Assembly: GCF_000332195.1 (NCBI RefSeq)
Contig: NZ_KB235922.1
Location: 5,181,322 to 5,245,321, forward strand
Source of the DNA: Pleurocapsa sp. PCC 7319
GTDB lineage: Bacteria > Cyanobacteriota > Cyanobacteriia > Cyanobacteriales > Xenococcaceae
Length of the DNA stretch: 64,000 nucleotides
Direction: 5' to 3'
A program made the translations under genes and the position numbers. Below, piece after piece: positions 23,365 to 28,842 of this stretch. Numbering within the stretch: position 1 is the first letter of the stretch; every line of letters starts with the position of its first letter. The notes below the pieces were generated by a model, which saw nothing but the letters and a program-made list of their open reading frames with translations, had not been told where the DNA came from and made no database searches.

Positions 23365-25155
23365 TTATAAACCATACAAACCAATAATTAGGGCGGGAGT
23401 AATTAGAGTGATAATAAGACTTAATGGTGTTCCTAAACGAATGAAATCAATGAATCGATATCCCCCTGGTCCATAAATCATAGTATTTGTCTGGTAGGCA
23501 ATGGGAGTCATAAAGCTATTGGAAGCAGCAAAAGTAACTGCCATCATAATGGCAAAAGGATTTAAATCTAGTGATTGAGCTACTTGAACACCAAGAGGAA
23601 TCATCAGTAAAACAGCGGCATTATTAGACAAAATTGAGGTCAAGATTGTTGTAATCAGATAGAAGAACAACAAAATCCAGTAACCTGATAAATTGTTGCC
23701 AATAAATAATATAGGCTTGGCTAAATATGCCGTTGCACCGGAATTTTGCATTGCTGTCCCCAAAGGAATTAATCCAGCTAATAAAAAAATCACATCCCAA
23801 CGCACTGCACCATAAATTTCTCCTGGTTTGAGGCAGCCAGTTAAAACCATCAAGACCACACCAGCCAAGGCACTAACCAAAATTGGTGCTAAATTAAATG
23901 CCGCAGTCAGAATTACCGCCAAACAGATAAAAACTGCAACCATAGCTTTGTCTAGCCTTAAGTTTTCTACATCTCGTTGCTCTAAGACTAGTAATTCACG
24001 GGAAGTCTGCAAACCTAAAAAACTTTGTTTAGGACCTTGAACTAAGAGTAAATCACCAAAACGTAAGGGAACTTTCCCTAGTCTGTCTCTTAGTACTTCC
24101 TGTCCTCGGCGAATTGCCAATACGGTAGCATTTCGTCGTTGGCGAAAACGCAAATCTTTCAGGGTTGCGCCAATAAAACGGGAGTTAGATAGAATCAAAA
24201 CCTCCCCAATTTTTTCTTCTCCCGTATTTAACTCTGCCTCTAATTGCTCTTGATTGAACTTGACATCAGGTAAAATTTCAATACCTCTTTCAGCTTTAAT
24301 TTGTAGAAGAGTATCTTTGCTACCTCTTACTATTAAAATATCTCCAGCTCTAATTTTTTTGTCGGCAATTGGTTGGGGAAAATGAGTACCATTATGGATC
24401 ATTTCTAATACGTCAACATCAAACTTACGCTGGATCTCGCTTTGACGTAGCGTCTGCCCAATAAGACTAGATCTAGGAGAAACTACGACCTCAGTGACAT
24501 ACTCTTTGATTTCATAGTCTTCACTCAAACGGCCGGTCTTACCAGTTTTATGATTACGCAAAATTCTCGGTGCGACAATCACGATATACAATAAACCAAT
24601 AAAAAAAATAATAATTCCTAACTTTGTAAACTGAAATAATTGAAACTCTCCTTGACCTAATTTTTTCGATAAACTACTGGCTAAAATATTAGTTGAAGTG
24701 CCAATTAAAGTTAATGTCCCCCCTAAAATAGAGGCGAAAGACAAGGGCATCAGCAATTTAGAACTGGCAATTCCTCTCTTTTGGGCAAAATCTTCAATGA
24801 TGGGAATAAAAATTGCCACTACTGCCGTATTATTGATAAATGCACTAATCGGTCCCACGATTATACCCATTACAGCAATCTGCTGATAAATATTTTTGCC
24901 ACTCCAGGACAACAGTAAATCTCGCACAACCTGAATTGCTCCCGTTCGAGTCACACCTGCACTAAGGATAAACATCGCCATCACTGTAATTGTCGCCGTG
25001 TTTCCAAACCCTGCAATCCCTTCTTCGGGGGTAACTAACCCCAGCAACATCAAAATGATTGCAACCATGATGGCTGTTAAGTCCACAGGAAACCATTCGA
25101 AGATAAACGCAACCAAAGCTAGGGTTAGAATACTAAAAGTCAGATAAATCTCCAT
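23365..25155 (-). CDS. SLC13-family anion permease with two TrkA-C domains
   Basis: A 596-residue permease. N-terminal and C-terminal membrane halves (FNLAPILVSALAGVVLMVLT in the second) flank a soluble middle with two TrkA_C/RCK_C domains (VVVSPRSSLIGQTLRQSEIQ and ILSNSRFIGATLKDLRFRQR). The substrate-site hairpins include GTSTNILASS in the first half and SFMTPIAYQTNTMIYGPGGY in the second. Members move sulfate, dicarboxylates or similar anions, usually with sodium; several cyanobacterial ones are sulfate transporters. It starts at an ATG and stands alone. Confidence 0.9.
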   Translation of the reverse strand: MEIYLTFSILTLALVAFIFEWFPVDLTAIMVAIILMLLGLVTPEEGIAGFGNTATITVMAMFILSAGVTRTGAIQVVRDLLLSWSGKNIYQQIAVMGIIVGPISAFINNTAVVAIFIPIIEDFAQKRGIASSKLLMPLSFASILGGTLTLIGTSTNILASSLSKKLGQGEFQLFQFTKLGIIIFFIGLLYIVIVAPRILRNHKTGKTGRLSEDYEIKEYVTEVVVSPRSSLIGQTLRQSEIQRKFDVDVLEMIHNGTHFPQPIADKKIRAGDILIVRGSKDTLLQIKAERGIEILPDVKFNQEQLEAELNTGEEKIGEVLILSNSRFIGATLKDLRFRQRRNATVLAIRRGQEVLRDRLGKVPLRFGDLLLVQGPKQSFLGLQTSRELLVLEQRDVENLRLDKAMVAVFICLAVILTAAFNLAPILVSALAGVVLMVLTGCLKPGEIYGAVRWDVIFLLAGLIPLGTAMQNSGATAYLAKPILFIGNNLSGYWILLFFYLITTILTSILSNNAAVLLMIPLGVQVAQSLDLNPFAIMMAVTFAASNSFMTPIAYQTNTMIYGPGGYRFIDFIRLGTPLSLIITLITPALIIGLYGL

Positions 25156-25351
25156 TTAGCTTGGTCTGAGTAATCAATAATATAAACCTGTTAATTATAC
25201 TCATGGTCAACTTAAGCTCGCTGCAATATCGAACCCTGTTAGAACAGATATTTTACAAGCGGATTTTGTATAATGAGGAACAAAAAGTAGCGGTTGATAC
25301 AGAATTTATGATATATTTGTGAATGTGTAAAAAGAAAATCAAAAAAATCCA

Positions 25352-25543
25352 ATGTCTATTCAAAACCAAGCTCGCTCTTTGCTAACGCGCCAACAAAAAT
25401 TAGTCATGAAGCGTAAACAATCTATGCTGGCTCGGACTGCTACCGAAATTGGCGTAGATGTCGATCCCCAATTTCACAGTCATATTCAAGGTAAAACAAT
25501 TAACGATATAGGTAGTAATCGTAGCAACGCTGCGATGAGCTAA
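25352..25543 (+). CDS. Small basic protein of unknown function
   Basis: A 63-residue protein starting MSIQNQARSLLTRQQKLVMK, with a strongly basic N-terminal half (KRKQSMLAR) that could bind nucleic acid or membrane. The second half is neutral. It lies 8 bases after AAGAAAATC, without a strong Shine-Dalgarno. I believe similar short proteins occur in cyanobacteria but cannot name a family. Confidence 0.55.
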   Translation: MSIQNQARSLLTRQQKLVMKRKQSMLARTATEIGVDVDPQFHSHIQGKTINDIGSNRSNAAMS

Positions 25544-25805
25544 AGACTAAACTAACTTTCAAAAAAATTTAATAACTTAACTTTAAAGCAAATGCGACTT
25601 ATTTTGAGGCATTTGGCATTACCTAAGAAATGGGGTGTATTTCTAGTTTAGAAGCACCTCATTTTTTGAGACAGAATCCCACAACTCTTCATGGAGAAGA
25701 TGTACTGCTAGGTTTTGTTCTGAATTTAAAAAATAAACTGTTACACCGTTGTGGGTAATTTGAATCTTGCCGTCCAGTCTGAGAGGATGTCTGAAAAGTA
25801 TTAGA

Positions 25806-26134
25806 TTATGCCAACCTTCTTAACATCAAACGAATCATAGCGACTCGAATCATAGTTTCGGAAGTGGCAGGTAAAACTTCATAATCTTTGTTCAAACGGC
25901 GACACCAATTGAACCAGCCGAAAGTACGCTCGACTACCCAACGTCGGGGTAAAATCTTAAATCCTTTCTGTTGGTCTGAACGTAGGACAGTTTCTATTAT
26001 CCATCGATAGGTGTCCATGACCCATTCATTTCATAAATTCCTCTCCTCTATATCCCCCATCAACCCAAATTTTGGCGTTTGGTCAAAATTTTGTCTGTTC
26101 TTTTTTGACTTTTGCCAAGACTAACTTAGCACCT
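25806..26134 (-). pseudogene. IS5-family transposase, C-terminal part (broken)
   Basis: This is the downstream part of the transposase whose first part is at 28206-28676. Read through the insertion, the frame continues AGAKLVLAKVKKEQTKF, a TGA where a Trp codon is expected, then [15 protein letters not shown], the second catalytic Asp region (DGGY). A duplicated 4-base CATT at 26023-26030 then shifts the frame. After it comes the conserved end [20 protein letters not shown], which carries the catalytic Glu. The protein cannot be made. Confidence 0.9.
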
Positions 26135-26195
26135 GCTCTTTCCTGACTTTTCACGGCATCTTTGGAAAAGAGTATAAGTTAGGTAACAATGTTCG

Positions 26196-26588
26196 CTAAC
26201 CTTTGCTGAATCTTGATGCTTCCTCTACCAAATCCTCCAACCCCATTGAAAGTGTACTCATCCCTCGCTCCAATGCTTCAATTCGGCCACGACGAGATAG
26301 AGCTTCAACCGCGTTCAAATAATCTTTACTTCCAGCTTTGCCTAAATATCGATGACGAGATGGAGTCCCATTTTTGGTGACAAAAATCGGTTCATGGGAC
26401 ATCCATTTGTAATACCAATAACGACCCCCCTTTTGTCCTTTGGCTTGGTAACGGACAATCCAACAACCAGACGGAGCAATTTCTCCTTCAGAGCGGATGT
26501 CTTCAATATCTTGTTGGAGTTGTTTGAGAAGATGTTTAAGTTCATCTAGACGACTGGCTACATCCTTCTGTTGACGGGCATTGGGCAT
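26196..26588 (-). CDS. Passenger protein of the IS4-family element
   Basis: A 130-residue protein inside the element, 95 bases downstream of the transposase gene on the same strand. An N-terminal heptad-rich helix (RLDELKHLLKQLQQDIEDIR) should form a coiled coil. A compact basic and aromatic domain follows (KGGRYWYYKWMSHEPIFVTK, then RHRYLGKAGSKDYLNAVEAL), and a final helical tail. The RYWYY..RYLGK pattern recalls small proteins of mobile elements, perhaps DNA-binding, but I cannot name the family. It is not needed for simple transposition in Tn5-like elements, so it is either a regulator or cargo. Start at an ATG. Confidence 0.7.
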   Translation of the reverse strand: MPNARQQKDVASRLDELKHLLKQLQQDIEDIRSEGEIAPSGCWIVRYQAKGQKGGRYWYYKWMSHEPIFVTKNGTPSRHRYLGKAGSKDYLNAVEALSRRGRIEALERGMSTLSMGLEDLVEEASRFSKG

Positions 26589-26683
26589 AGTTAAGACCAG
26601 AAAAAGTCCTAATTCATTATGTAATAAAGTTCGCTAACCAAATCCTTATCCTACTCCCGCACCTCGTAGCAATCAACTCCCTC

Positions 26684-28084
26684 CTAAACTTTAAAATGGG
26701 AGCGTAATTGCCATCCTTCACACAAAGATTGCAATTCTAAAAATCCGCGCCATAAAACGGTAATACCAATATTACTTTTCTTTCGATGACTCAAGTAACC
26801 GCCCAAACGAGCTACAGCTTGCATCGCCCAGGCTACCGTCAAATCTACTACGGGGACTGATTTTCTTCCTTTGGCAGCTAAAACCTCAAGTTGTACCTCA
26901 TTTAAAACCGAAGATGCCGGTGCTTCTGGTTCGGTTCGATTTAAATAAGTCATTTTTAACAATTGTGCCGCAATATTTGTTAAAAATCCTAATAATACCT
27001 GCATACTATTTCCAGATAGACGATAGCTTTCCGCCTTACATCCTGACTTGAGAATTTTATGATATTCTTCAATTCGCCAACGGTAAGTGTACCACCGTAA
27101 AATGGTTTGTGCCTGTTCCTCATTTGTAACGGGTTCTGTAGTCAAGATCATCCATTCTACGCGTTCACAGCCCTCTGGGGGGTCAATTTCTACGGCATAA
27201 ACCCCATAAACTTCAAAAGATTCTGGTTCTTTAATTCTGGCGGGACTACGAAGTTTAATAGGTGCATATCTAATTGCCAAAACTGCGATTCGCTCTGTCC
27301 TCTGTTTGGTTTTGGCTAGTTCTATCGCTACTTCCATCTTGATCGGTTGGGATGGTAGCCATGACCATAGATAACTGTTTTCTCCCTCAAGTGCTCGATT
27401 ATGTGCTGCTCTTACTACTAACCCTGTATTTGAGGTTTTACTGACTTGAGCAAAGACTTCCGCAATGTCCCCTTCTCGGTCAAATACATGGATAATTTTG
27501 GGCCTTGTAGGCTCTGGAACGGAGATTTTTAAGAGTTTTTCGACTTCTTTGAGAGCTTCTATCCATTTATAAGATTCTTTCTCTTCAATTGGGCGTTTTC
27601 TGGCTTCTGCTTGTTTTTTCTTCCTCTGTTTCTTCGTTAGATTTTCCCCTTTTTCTTCATGCTCTCGATGCCACAGTTTTTCTGTTAGTAATCCTATTGG
27701 TTGTCCATTGTCGGCATCAAGGGCTAAGGTGCTATGTAGAATTAGTCCATTTCCCCCATTGCCAATCGGTCCATATTCGGCTCTTTTGTCGAGGATTTTT
27801 TTGTAATCGAGATAGGTTGTATCTCCCACTGCTAATACGATGGGGAGTGCTTTAATCTGAGCTGCTGTTTGAAGATGATAGGGTTGGCACACACTGCTTA
27901 AGCTAGTTTTCGGATTGGCAAAGAATTCATAAGCTCTTTTCAGGTCACTTGCTCTCTCAAAAATCTCTGAGAGTGGCTTGCCATATTTTAACGATAATCT
28001 TGATTCGATGAACATCGCCCTTTTGGTTAAACGTTGATCTCCAAAGTCGCATTTTTCCGTTATTGAATTTTTGGTCTGATTCAT
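26684..28084 (-). CDS. IS4-family transposase (Tn5-like)
   Basis: A 466-residue DDE transposase. The N-terminal DNA-binding domain begins with DFGDQRLTKRAMFIESRLSL. The first catalytic Asp is in VLAVGDTTYLDY, the second in IHVFDREGDIAEVF. The YREK signature is YTYRWRIEEYHKILK with the same spacing as in Tn5 (Tyr, Arg+3, Glu+7, Lys+14), carrying the catalytic Glu. Tn5-like enzymes cut and paste through hairpin intermediates. Length is normal and no frameshift is seen, so it should be functional. Start at an ATG 126 bases inside the right end. Confidence 0.95.
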   Translation of the reverse strand: MNQTKNSITEKCDFGDQRLTKRAMFIESRLSLKYGKPLSEIFERASDLKRAYEFFANPKTSLSSVCQPYHLQTAAQIKALPIVLAVGDTTYLDYKKILDKRAEYGPIGNGGNGLILHSTLALDADNGQPIGLLTEKLWHREHEEKGENLTKKQRKKKQAEARKRPIEEKESYKWIEALKEVEKLLKISVPEPTRPKIIHVFDREGDIAEVFAQVSKTSNTGLVVRAAHNRALEGENSYLWSWLPSQPIKMEVAIELAKTKQRTERIAVLAIRYAPIKLRSPARIKEPESFEVYGVYAVEIDPPEGCERVEWMILTTEPVTNEEQAQTILRWYTYRWRIEEYHKILKSGCKAESYRLSGNSMQVLLGFLTNIAAQLLKMTYLNRTEPEAPASSVLNEVQLEVLAAKGRKSVPVVDLTVAWAMQAVARLGGYLSHRKKSNIGITVLWRGFLELQSLCEGWQLRSHFKV

Positions 28085-28205
28085 TCATAACTTACAATCG
28101 GCTCAATTATTTTGCTCTATCGAGAGCGCAGATTTCTCTAAATGAGTAATTGTTAGCGAATATTGTTACACAACTTATATTTCCTCCAAAAGATGCCGTG
28201 AAAAG

Positions 28206-28676
28206 TCAGGCTCTTTCAGGTAAATTAGCTGCTGTGACTACTACCACAATCAAAAGTCCTAGAGTATCAACCAGAACATGACGTTTACGTCCTTTGATTT
28301 GCTTGGCACAATCGTATCCAACATCACGATGGATCATTGTTGCTGTCTTAATAGATTGACTATCCAAAACGGCTGCCGATGGACTGGGATGATGATCTTC
28401 AATTGCTCGAACCCATTTTCTCAACTGTTCATGAATACGTTCCCAGTCCCCACTGATGCGCCATTGTCTGAAGTAATGATAGACTGTTTTCCATTTCGGA
28501 AAATCATGTGGCAGTAAACACCAGGCACATCCAGCCACCAAGACGTAAAAAATTCCATCCATTACTCCTCTCATATCTACCGTTCGAGGACGACCGCCAG
28601 TTTTAGCTGCTGGGATTAAGCTTTTGATTATTTCCCATTGTTCATCGGTTAAATCGCTGCGATATGATTGTCTCAT
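28206..28676 (-). pseudogene. IS5-family transposase, N-terminal part (interrupted)
   Basis: Residues 1-153 or so of an IS5-family DDE transposase: MRQSYRSDLTDEQWEIIKSL at the start, then RRPRTVDMRGVMDGIFYVL-like HTH region, and the first catalytic Asp in AAVLDSQSIKTA. The true coding ends with AANLPERA at the insertion; the last bases to the TGA come from the IS4 end. The rest of the gene lies at 25806-26134. Start is ATG at 28676. Confidence 0.93.
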
Positions 28677-28842
28677 GACTCTCGTTTTCTGTCTTTTTAA
28701 GCTATTGACAGATTTAATTTAACGAGAGTTTTTCTAATTTTTATCAGCGATCAGCTTTGCTGGTACGCGGAGCGCAATCGCATTTATTTTGACTTTTTAG
28801 ACATCCTCTGAGTAATATTTTTGAAAATAGAGATACCAAGCC

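Follow-up and report, generated by a model that had tools for sequence, protein, structure and literature searches.

In the genome of Pleurocapsa sp. PCC 7319 (GCF_000332195.1), one insertion sequence (IS) lies inside another and the inner one encodes a second, small protein beside its transposase, which raises the question of what this passenger gene does and whether the short DNA sites around it belong to the gene or to the transposase. We analyzed the locus in a window of 64,000 nt (NZ_KB235922.1, positions 5,181,322–5,245,321 of the forward strand), to which all coordinates below refer. By direct reading and repeat finding, a Tn5-like element of the IS4 family at 26143–28209 sits within a broken IS5-family element at 25783–28808, both on the minus strand. 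Such a nested arrangement is by itself ordinary.

The initial annotation had described the outer element as bounded by 17-base inverted repeats and TGA duplications, and both descriptions were confirmed. Its ends GAGGATGTCTGAAAAGT and GAGGATGTCTAAAAAGT (25783–25799 and 28792–28808) were identical at 16 of 17 positions and were recovered by repeat finding as a pair of 21 nt at 90% (I2), with TGA at 25780–25782 and 28809–28811. The transposase model NF033580 (IS5_3) matched the N-terminal part at 28218–28676 (minus strand, within the ORF 28206–28676; model positions 1–152, E = 3.9e-42) and the C-terminal part at 25806–26018 (minus strand; model positions 201–258, E = 2.3e-15), which together with the 17-bp ends and the 3-bp duplication places the element in the IS5 family. 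An origin of the two halves from different IS5 elements, named in advance as grounds for rejecting the nesting, was thus not borne out. Since both halves fit one model at complementary positions and the reading frame crosses the junction, the proposed order, IS5 first and the Tn5-like element later, was supported. The restored 951-base element held in part: the joined flanks measured 951 bp and the frame was open across the junction, but an in-frame stop and a frameshift followed downstream, so that the outer transposase was broken apart from the insertion and has no working frame. The outer element was the only full copy of this IS5 in its own genome, where no uninterrupted copy was found. 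No empty target site was found with the left flank (25000–25779) among 13 genomes of the genus including its own, 8 of which (its own included) matched this flank, the other seven over parts only.

The inner element had been proposed to carry similar ends and an exact 8-base duplication, and it did: its terminal arms of 66 nt were 82% complementary (I1) and start with CTGACTTTTCACGGCATCTTT, and direct reading and copy comparison placed GCTCTTTC at 26135–26142 and 28210–28217. Ends unlike those of other copies would have spoken against these borders; the ends instead matched further copies in the same genome, and two full copies of the 2067-bp element elsewhere in it, both 100% identical, indicate that the borders are real. 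One of these copies was flanked by a 10-bp duplication (CTAAATCGAA) and the other by none, so that duplications of 8 and 10 bp accompany two of the three full copies; the ends were compared over the letters CTGACT. A sibling element, in which an IS630-like insert splits the passenger gene, was present in 8 full copies, against 3 of the element with the gene intact, and 6 of the 8 had duplications of 9–10 bp. The inner transposase (466 aa; 26684–28084, minus strand) matched NF033590 (IS4_3, E = 8.2e-101), with Tnp_DNA_bind and DDE_Tnp_1 above the cut-off and the dimerisation part below it. It reads as a Tn5-type DDE transposase, and YTYRWRIEEYHKILK contains Y-2-R-3-E-6-K, the spacing of the YREK signature. 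For the IS50 subgroup, a typical size of 1350–1550 bp, ends starting with CW and direct repeats of 8–9 bp are given (PMC2266710). The inner element resembles the IS50/Tn5 subgroup in its Tn5-type transposase and apparently also in its ends, which begin with CT, and its duplications of 8–10 bp. It differs in having a second gene, an internal copy of an end-proximal site and a length of 2067 bp; the added module takes it beyond this size range, which describes typical members and sets no strict limit.

The passenger gene (26196–26588, minus strand) encodes 130 aa of an unnamed family and is proposed here as a candidate DNA-binding regulator. It was not mentioned in the initial annotation. The protein was modeled as a helix, three strands and a helix (pLDDT 94.3), for which no informative fold match was obtained. 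No DNA-binding domain was recognized in it and no PHROG matched the window protein below 0.01, and Pfam, NCBIfam and PADLOC searches with 44 members of the family gave no curated family, only matches by single members (best E = 0.0016). The product was called hypothetical in all 8 annotated plasmid regions examined. A literature search, conducted mostly without subscription papers, found neither the gene nor its sites, although a family member may have been mentioned before.

Homologues were found in at least 22 of 386 cyanobacterial genomes, its own included, and in 41 plasmid records, all cyanobacterial; from 102 relatives, 80 were kept as loci. Seven kinds of transposase adjoin the gene: Tn5-like, IS4_1, ISKra4, IS1182, NF041680, DUF6399 and an unassigned kind that is IS4/IS701-like, the neighboring models being NF033590, NF033592, NF033551, NF041680 (in two pieces), NF033572 (ISKra4) and DUF6399. 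The passenger of Tolypothrix sp. PCC 7601 is of the ISKra4 type and that of Halotia of the Tn5-like type. By tblastn, 49 of the 80 loci matched Tn5-like (18), IS4_1 (20) or ISKra4-like (11) transposases, fragments included, and 30 matched none of the kinds queried. The passenger module is therefore tied to no single transposase, and seven kinds carry it in cyanobacteria.

Three 25-bp sites accompany the gene in the window: one at the passenger-side end (26177–26201, minus strand; GGTTAGCGAACATTGTTACCTAACT, 9/12 dyad pairs, D1) overlapping the last bases of the gene, one between the transposase and passenger genes (26615–26639, minus strand; GGTTAGCGAACTTTATTACATAATG, 5/12, D1) and one at the transposase-side end (28151–28175, plus strand; TGTTAGCGAATATTGTTACACAACT, 6/12, I3). 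This layout, with sites at the far end, before the gene and behind it, is that of the relatives, in which the common form is a 25-bp dyad GTTCGCG-N9-CGCGAAC and the types GTTAGCG, GTTCGCG and TATTCGCG were distinguished. As 18.6% of the 25-mers in the window reach 5 pairs and 7.0% reach 6, the window's own sites appear as weak dyads recognized by place and comparison, and the dyads look stronger in the listed relatives. At up to one mismatch, 68 of the 80 loci had at least one site and 12 had none, a few of the latter with variant dyads; the passenger loci of the own genome fail the strict pattern, L176 having no site and L199 one outside the element. Of the 143 sites, 139 lay in the three places of the layout and 4 did not: they were just behind the gene (62), just before it (42), at the far end as judged by distance (35) or elsewhere (4). 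A spacer of 9 gave these 143 matches and every other spacer from 0 to 24 gave 0–5, for a spacer and core chosen after inspection of the same loci, many of which are close relatives. With exact sites, 8 of 19 passenger genomes scored against 30 of 354 others among the matches listed (Fisher p = 1.9e-4; 19 of the 22 passenger genomes were used, since the set of 373 searched did not include G376, G382 or G385). Among the matches listed, those 30 passenger-less genomes hold single exact sites, and in only 7 of 33 pattern loci, representing six genes, does a passenger lie no more than 1.5 kb away.

Do the sites follow the small protein or the transposase? If the dyads were targets of some host protein or of the transposases themselves, and the small gene an unrelated passenger, this would accommodate both the putative nature of DNA binding by a protein with no recognizable domain for it and the large agreement between passenger clades and transposase kinds, most of which have a clade of their own (ISKra4 has two). 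Transposase relatives without the gene, however, mostly lack the sites: among the matches listed, they occurred in 0 of 28 Tn5-like loci, also with the TTAGCG form, and in 2 of 26 IS4_1/ISKra4 loci against 14 of 14 with the gene, that is, in 2 of 54 passenger-less loci from 35 genomes, the 14 passenger loci coming from five. In addition, the half-site GTTAGCG was found in the window, where the transposase is Tn5-like, in L096 and in the ISKra4-type elements L067, L250 and L251, whose passengers form one clade with that of the window (support 99/96); L250 has no annotated transposase in the stretch read, so the ISKra4 side is L067 and L251. In the remaining Tn5-like and ISKra4 elements the half-site is TTCGCG, and one genome holds both types, which also speaks against a host protein or transposase as the binder. 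Because clades and transposase kinds otherwise largely coincide, only the window clade separates the two possibilities, and in this case the half-site tracks the small protein. We therefore regard binding by host or transposase as quite improbable. Frequent exchange between transposases, suggested by a first tree (Tn5-like 4 and ISKra4 3 changes) in which 16 of 49 rows without an assigned transposase had been counted as a group, was withdrawn after rebuilding: the passenger tree of 40 rows, restricted to those with an assigned transposase plus five further plasmid rows and with L250 unlabelled, required 7 label changes where the least possible is 6 (ISKra4 2, Tn5-like 3).

We consider it probable, if well short of certain, that the passenger is a DNA-binding regulator, dimeric and carried by IS elements, which moves together with its operators, was acquired by several IS families and controls both itself and transposition. 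On this reading, the Tn5-like element that entered the broken IS5-family element brought a module of small gene and own sites, and the coiled-coil protein would bind the 25-bp dyad as a dimer just inside both ends and before its own gene. Occupancy before the gene would control its own synthesis, and occupancy of the ends would control access of the transposase to them or their pairing. Binding of DNA as a dimer is the most likely property, and autoregulation and an effect on transposition are predicted from it, with negative control slightly more likely than assistance. Against this reading, the multiplied sibling with a split gene shows that the element can do without the gene in cis.

That same sibling weighs against a positive architectural factor that pairs or bends both ends for the transposase, with autoregulation through the site before the gene, since its copies multiplied without an intact helper, and quite different transposases would all have to require the same one. 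The occurrence of sites close to both ends whatever the transposase family, in either gene order, and the far-end site of IS4_1 elements, which lies behind the transposase gene and away from its promoter, fit such a factor, and we consider it unlikely but a serious candidate. The dyads might also fold, as single-stranded DNA or as RNA, into hairpins of the REP/RAYT or IS200 kind that the small protein binds, as their near-perfect 25-nt palindromes and the covariation of dyad positions between elements (133 sites, with duplicates and sites containing N removed) would suggest. The positions mostly do not covary between sites of one element, however (43 loci with at least 2 new sites; 111 sites), apart from a slight excess at pair 2/24 (22/2000), and this combination is expected of a duplex site recognized by a protein. 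At positions 9/17 to 12/14, the two halves of a site also matched each other no better in complementarity than halves taken from separate sites in the same element, and the transposases are DDE types, which act on duplex ends, making hairpins the least credible reading. An ordinary nested IS with an incidental gene would suit the weak dyads of the window and the passenger genes already known from IS (PMC3942029), but is very improbable given that the gene recurs next to seven kinds of transposase with a repeated layout and a spacer fixed at 9 bp.

The regulator reading sets the module apart from most IS control, which is usually private to each family and relies on shortened or frameshifted transposases or antisense RNA. 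The inhibitor of Tn5 is itself a shortened transposase, whereas the putative regulator here is a separate protein. TNPA of maize En/Spm and the Mu repressor resemble the proposed regulator as element-coded proteins whose sites recur close to the element ends and in a promoter; neither is known to extend beyond one element family, whereas the passenger occurs in several. TnpB works as an RNA-guided nuclease and has about 400 residues, whereas the passenger has 130 and no domain of that type was found in it. Both are accessory IS genes dispensable for mobility, as stated for TnpB of IS200/IS605 (PMC8612924). Transposons of the ISAzba1 group carry a pRiA4_Orf3-like protein shared within one monophyletic branch, and some ISKra4 elements, four of them tabulated, carry extra genes of unknown function (PMC3942029). 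These are likewise small genes beside a transposase, and ISKra4 also hosts the passenger; the ISAzba1 ORF stays within one branch, whereas the passenger family has its own sites and several transposase families. A transferable transposition-control module, in which DDE transposons from several families have acquired a protein family along with its cognate operators, is a tentative proposal whose chances we put just short of even. If so, a common regulator would sit on both ends of such transposons, so that within a single cell members of separate families would come under matching or distinct operator types, and Tn5-like, IS4_1, ISKra4, IS1182 and other elements in IS-rich cyanobacteria would share a control layer. 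The proposal gives a hypothetical protein a testable function and provides a DNA signature for finding further members; a search of the own genome with the site pattern yielded two more passenger genes absent from the homologue listing, which adjoin IS1182 and a DUF6399 protein.

The initial annotation had described an IS5-family element (25783–28808) interrupted by a Tn5-like element of the IS4 family (26143–28209, 2067 bp). For the outer element, the TGA on both sides was borne out, but its 17-base ends carry one mismatched base and are not identical. The inner ends start with CTGACTTTTCACGG and GCTCTTTC flanks both sides, as reported; the terminal arms extend over 66 nt and are 82% complementary. 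Both outer transposase halves matched the IS5_3 model NF033580 at complementary positions and thus belong to one IS5 element. Rejoining the flanks gave the expected 951 bp with a frame open across the junction, and the proposed insertion order, IS5 earlier and Tn5-like later, is secure. The claimed continuous reading did not hold further on, where a stop and a frameshift follow, and the outer transposase gene is therefore broken in more than one way. In the 7.39-Mb genome of this strain, the inner element recurs in two more full copies at 100% identity, one with a 10-bp duplication and the other with none; a second full copy of the outer element was not found there. Another inner-element copy (L050, contig C4 202012–205245) is interrupted by an insert of 1164 bp, the two borders of which have 3 bases in common. 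A short stretch of the outer element (28731–28781; IS5 right-part positions 514–564) matches about 22 other places in the genome and is possibly a small dispersed repeat.

The inner element encodes a Tn5-like transposase (26684–28084, NF033590 match) and a passenger gene of 130 codons (26196–26588, minus strand) that matched no family in Pfam, NCBIfam or PHROGs. Passenger homologues were detected in 22 of 386 cyanobacterial genomes and 17 of 142 genera, this strain included. A one-genome-per-species scan returned 102 relatives, 80 of which were kept, all titled cyanobacteria save one bin labelled Gracilibacteria (L155). All 41 plasmid records with a passenger were cyanobacterial, and a search in phage found none. 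In all eight annotated regions opened, the gene was called a "hypothetical protein". An alignment of 44 members, for which no curated family was found, has an invariant core (R46 Y47, Y57, Y59 Y60 K61 and L82–G86). The predicted structure (pLDDT 94.3) consists of a helix (4–34), three strands (43–50, 56–63 and 79–83) and a second helix (88–129), and fold searches with it gave no informative match.

We screened the 80 passenger loci with seven transposase fragments, counting fragment matches. A same-strand Tn5-like match was obtained at 18 loci, an IS4_1 match at 20 and an ISKra4-like match at 11; one more locus matched only the L076-type transposase and 30 matched none of the seven. In family scans, IS4_1, ISKra4 and IS1182 beside passengers scored above cut-offs, as did ISKra4 at L251 of Tolypothrix and at four other loci. 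NF041680 matched a split gene in two pieces, and an IS4/IS701-like piece was assigned no family. DUF6399 proteins (Pfam, function unknown) stand at the transposase's place in passenger-bearing elements (L209:1537–3021, L123:2306–3490, L122:2271–3551 and L255:1283–2857) and may also be transposases. Some of these hosts, such as the IS4 subgroups, are distantly related to each other and others are different superfamilies; ISKra4 is Mutator-like (PMC3942029). The passenger lies behind the transposase on the same strand in Tn5-like and ISKra4 elements and is divergent from it in IS4_1, IS1182 and DUF6399 elements. On a passenger tree of 40 rows, 39 with an assigned transposase, the transposase kind changed 7 times over all kinds (least possible 6); most kinds formed their own clade, IS4_1 a single one (95/97), and ISKra4 occupied two places. 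A 4.8-kb unit with ends CTATCCATTACCCGCATCTT, present in Calothrix sp. PCC 7716 as five near-identical copies (L126–L130; possible 9-bp duplication in L126), holds an IS4_1 transposase, a passenger and, as a second transposase, a Tn5-like one (29% to that of the window), with no strict sites.

When full Tn5-like elements with CTGACTTTTCACGG ends were compared, one palindrome occurred three times, about 35 bases inside either end and between the genes. With the pattern TTCGCG-N9-CGCGAA (up to one mismatch), whose core and spacer were picked after viewing such loci, the 80 non-independent loci gave 143 matches at spacer 9 and 0–5 at every other spacer from 0 to 24. These sites lay directly behind the gene (62), directly before it (42), at the far end as judged by distance (35) or elsewhere (4). 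At least one was present at 68 of the 80 loci, both flanking sites at 39 and no strict-pattern site at 12. Gene and sites lie together inside elements delimited by ends and duplications in L105 (2114 bp, 10-bp duplication), the ISKra4 elements L164, L168 and L175 (8-bp duplications), and L116 and L117 (10-bp duplications). The three window sites can be mutually aligned, yet pair at just 9, 5 and 6 of 12 dyad positions; they were counted on account of where they lie and how they match the passenger locus L096.

Among the matches listed, no site was found at the 28 Tn5-like relatives lacking a passenger, nor was the TTAGCG form, and IS4_1/ISKra4 loci had sites in 14/14 cases with a passenger (five genomes) versus 2/26 without, both of the latter only partial transposase matches. 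In the Pleurocapsa genome, the pattern with up to one mismatch occurred at 15 places versus 2 for a reversed control, and exact matches led to two passenger genes absent from the initial homologue list: an IS1182 transposase accompanies the first, which has three sites, and a DUF6399 protein the second, which has two. Exact sites occurred in 8 of 19 genomes with a passenger versus 30 of 354 others (P = 1.9e-4). An exact site by itself is not diagnostic: among the matches listed, a passenger lay no further than 1.5 kb away at only 7 of 33 pattern loci (six genes). One genome without a passenger match (G011) has GC-rich palindromes of the form TTCGCGGGCGCAGCCCGCGAA (six matches counted, five listed), probably an unrelated dispersed repeat.

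Sites mostly read GGTTCGCG in other Tn5-like elements, TGTTCGCG or TGTTCTCG in IS4_1 and TATTCGCG in the main ISKra4 clade. The GTTAGCG half-site is found in the window, L096, L067, L250 and L251. The transposase is of the ISKra4 kind at L251 and, by way of the near-identical copy L089, at L067; none is annotated within the stretch read for L250. Since the window's passenger forms a single clade (99/96) with those of L067, L250 and L251 across Tn5-like and ISKra4 hosts, and L096 groups beside the window's in another tree, the half-site here follows the protein and not the kind of transposase; this clade is the sole comparison separating protein from transposase, which elsewhere coincide. In a set of 133 distinct sites, covariation was seen at positions 1/25, 2/24, 9/17 and 10/16 (0/2000 shuffles), was weaker at 11/15 (3/2000) and was absent at 12/14. 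Within an element, complementarity between the two halves of a site did not exceed that between halves taken from different sites, apart from a slight excess at 2/24 (22/2000). Because covariation thus arises between elements and scarcely within one, a two-fold protein on duplex DNA fits better than a hairpin. Rippkaea (L253) has a GTTCTC dyad, and in Okeania sp. SIO1I7 (L139) the passenger is followed by a variant dyad, AGTTAGTGTAAACTTTACGCTAACT, and preceded by a similar one, which is another half-site type.

Related elements in the Pleurocapsa genome, about 87% identical, have the passenger interrupted by an IS630-like insert, 968 bp long and bounded by a duplicated TA. The insert is itself broken; two of three ORFs tested matched NF033545 weakly (E 0.00065 and 0.0046). 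We read eight full copies (L051–L054 and L056–L059; insert at element nt 195–1162), of which five are mutually identical, one has one difference and two have one-base length changes; duplications are 9–10 bp in six and virtually none in two (2 and 3 matching bases). The insert and the element around it form a second nested structure, multiplied as a unit, and these copies show that the element multiplies despite a broken passenger, at least with intact copies present. A 968-bp internally deleted derivative of this related element (L061, contig C9 19361–20328), at whose ends no exact duplication was seen, retains both ends without the transposase and is MITE-like.

A passenger dimer would most likely occupy the site ahead of its own gene and those at both element ends, where it would keep its own level steady and limit or order transposase access. 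Such a module would require only DNA sites near the ends and be usable with any transposase; this would account for several families having taken it up. That control acts as restraint is a guess from one genome, prompted by sites at the ends and by more copies without the intact gene than with it. A literature search brought up no description of a single regulator whose operators, along with the regulator, are common to different IS families. End-binding regulators exist in other transposons, and the passenger module may be likened to these and to the passenger genes of IS elements. The latter include an ORF shared by one ISAzba1 branch and unnamed extra genes in four ISKra4 elements (PMC3942029).
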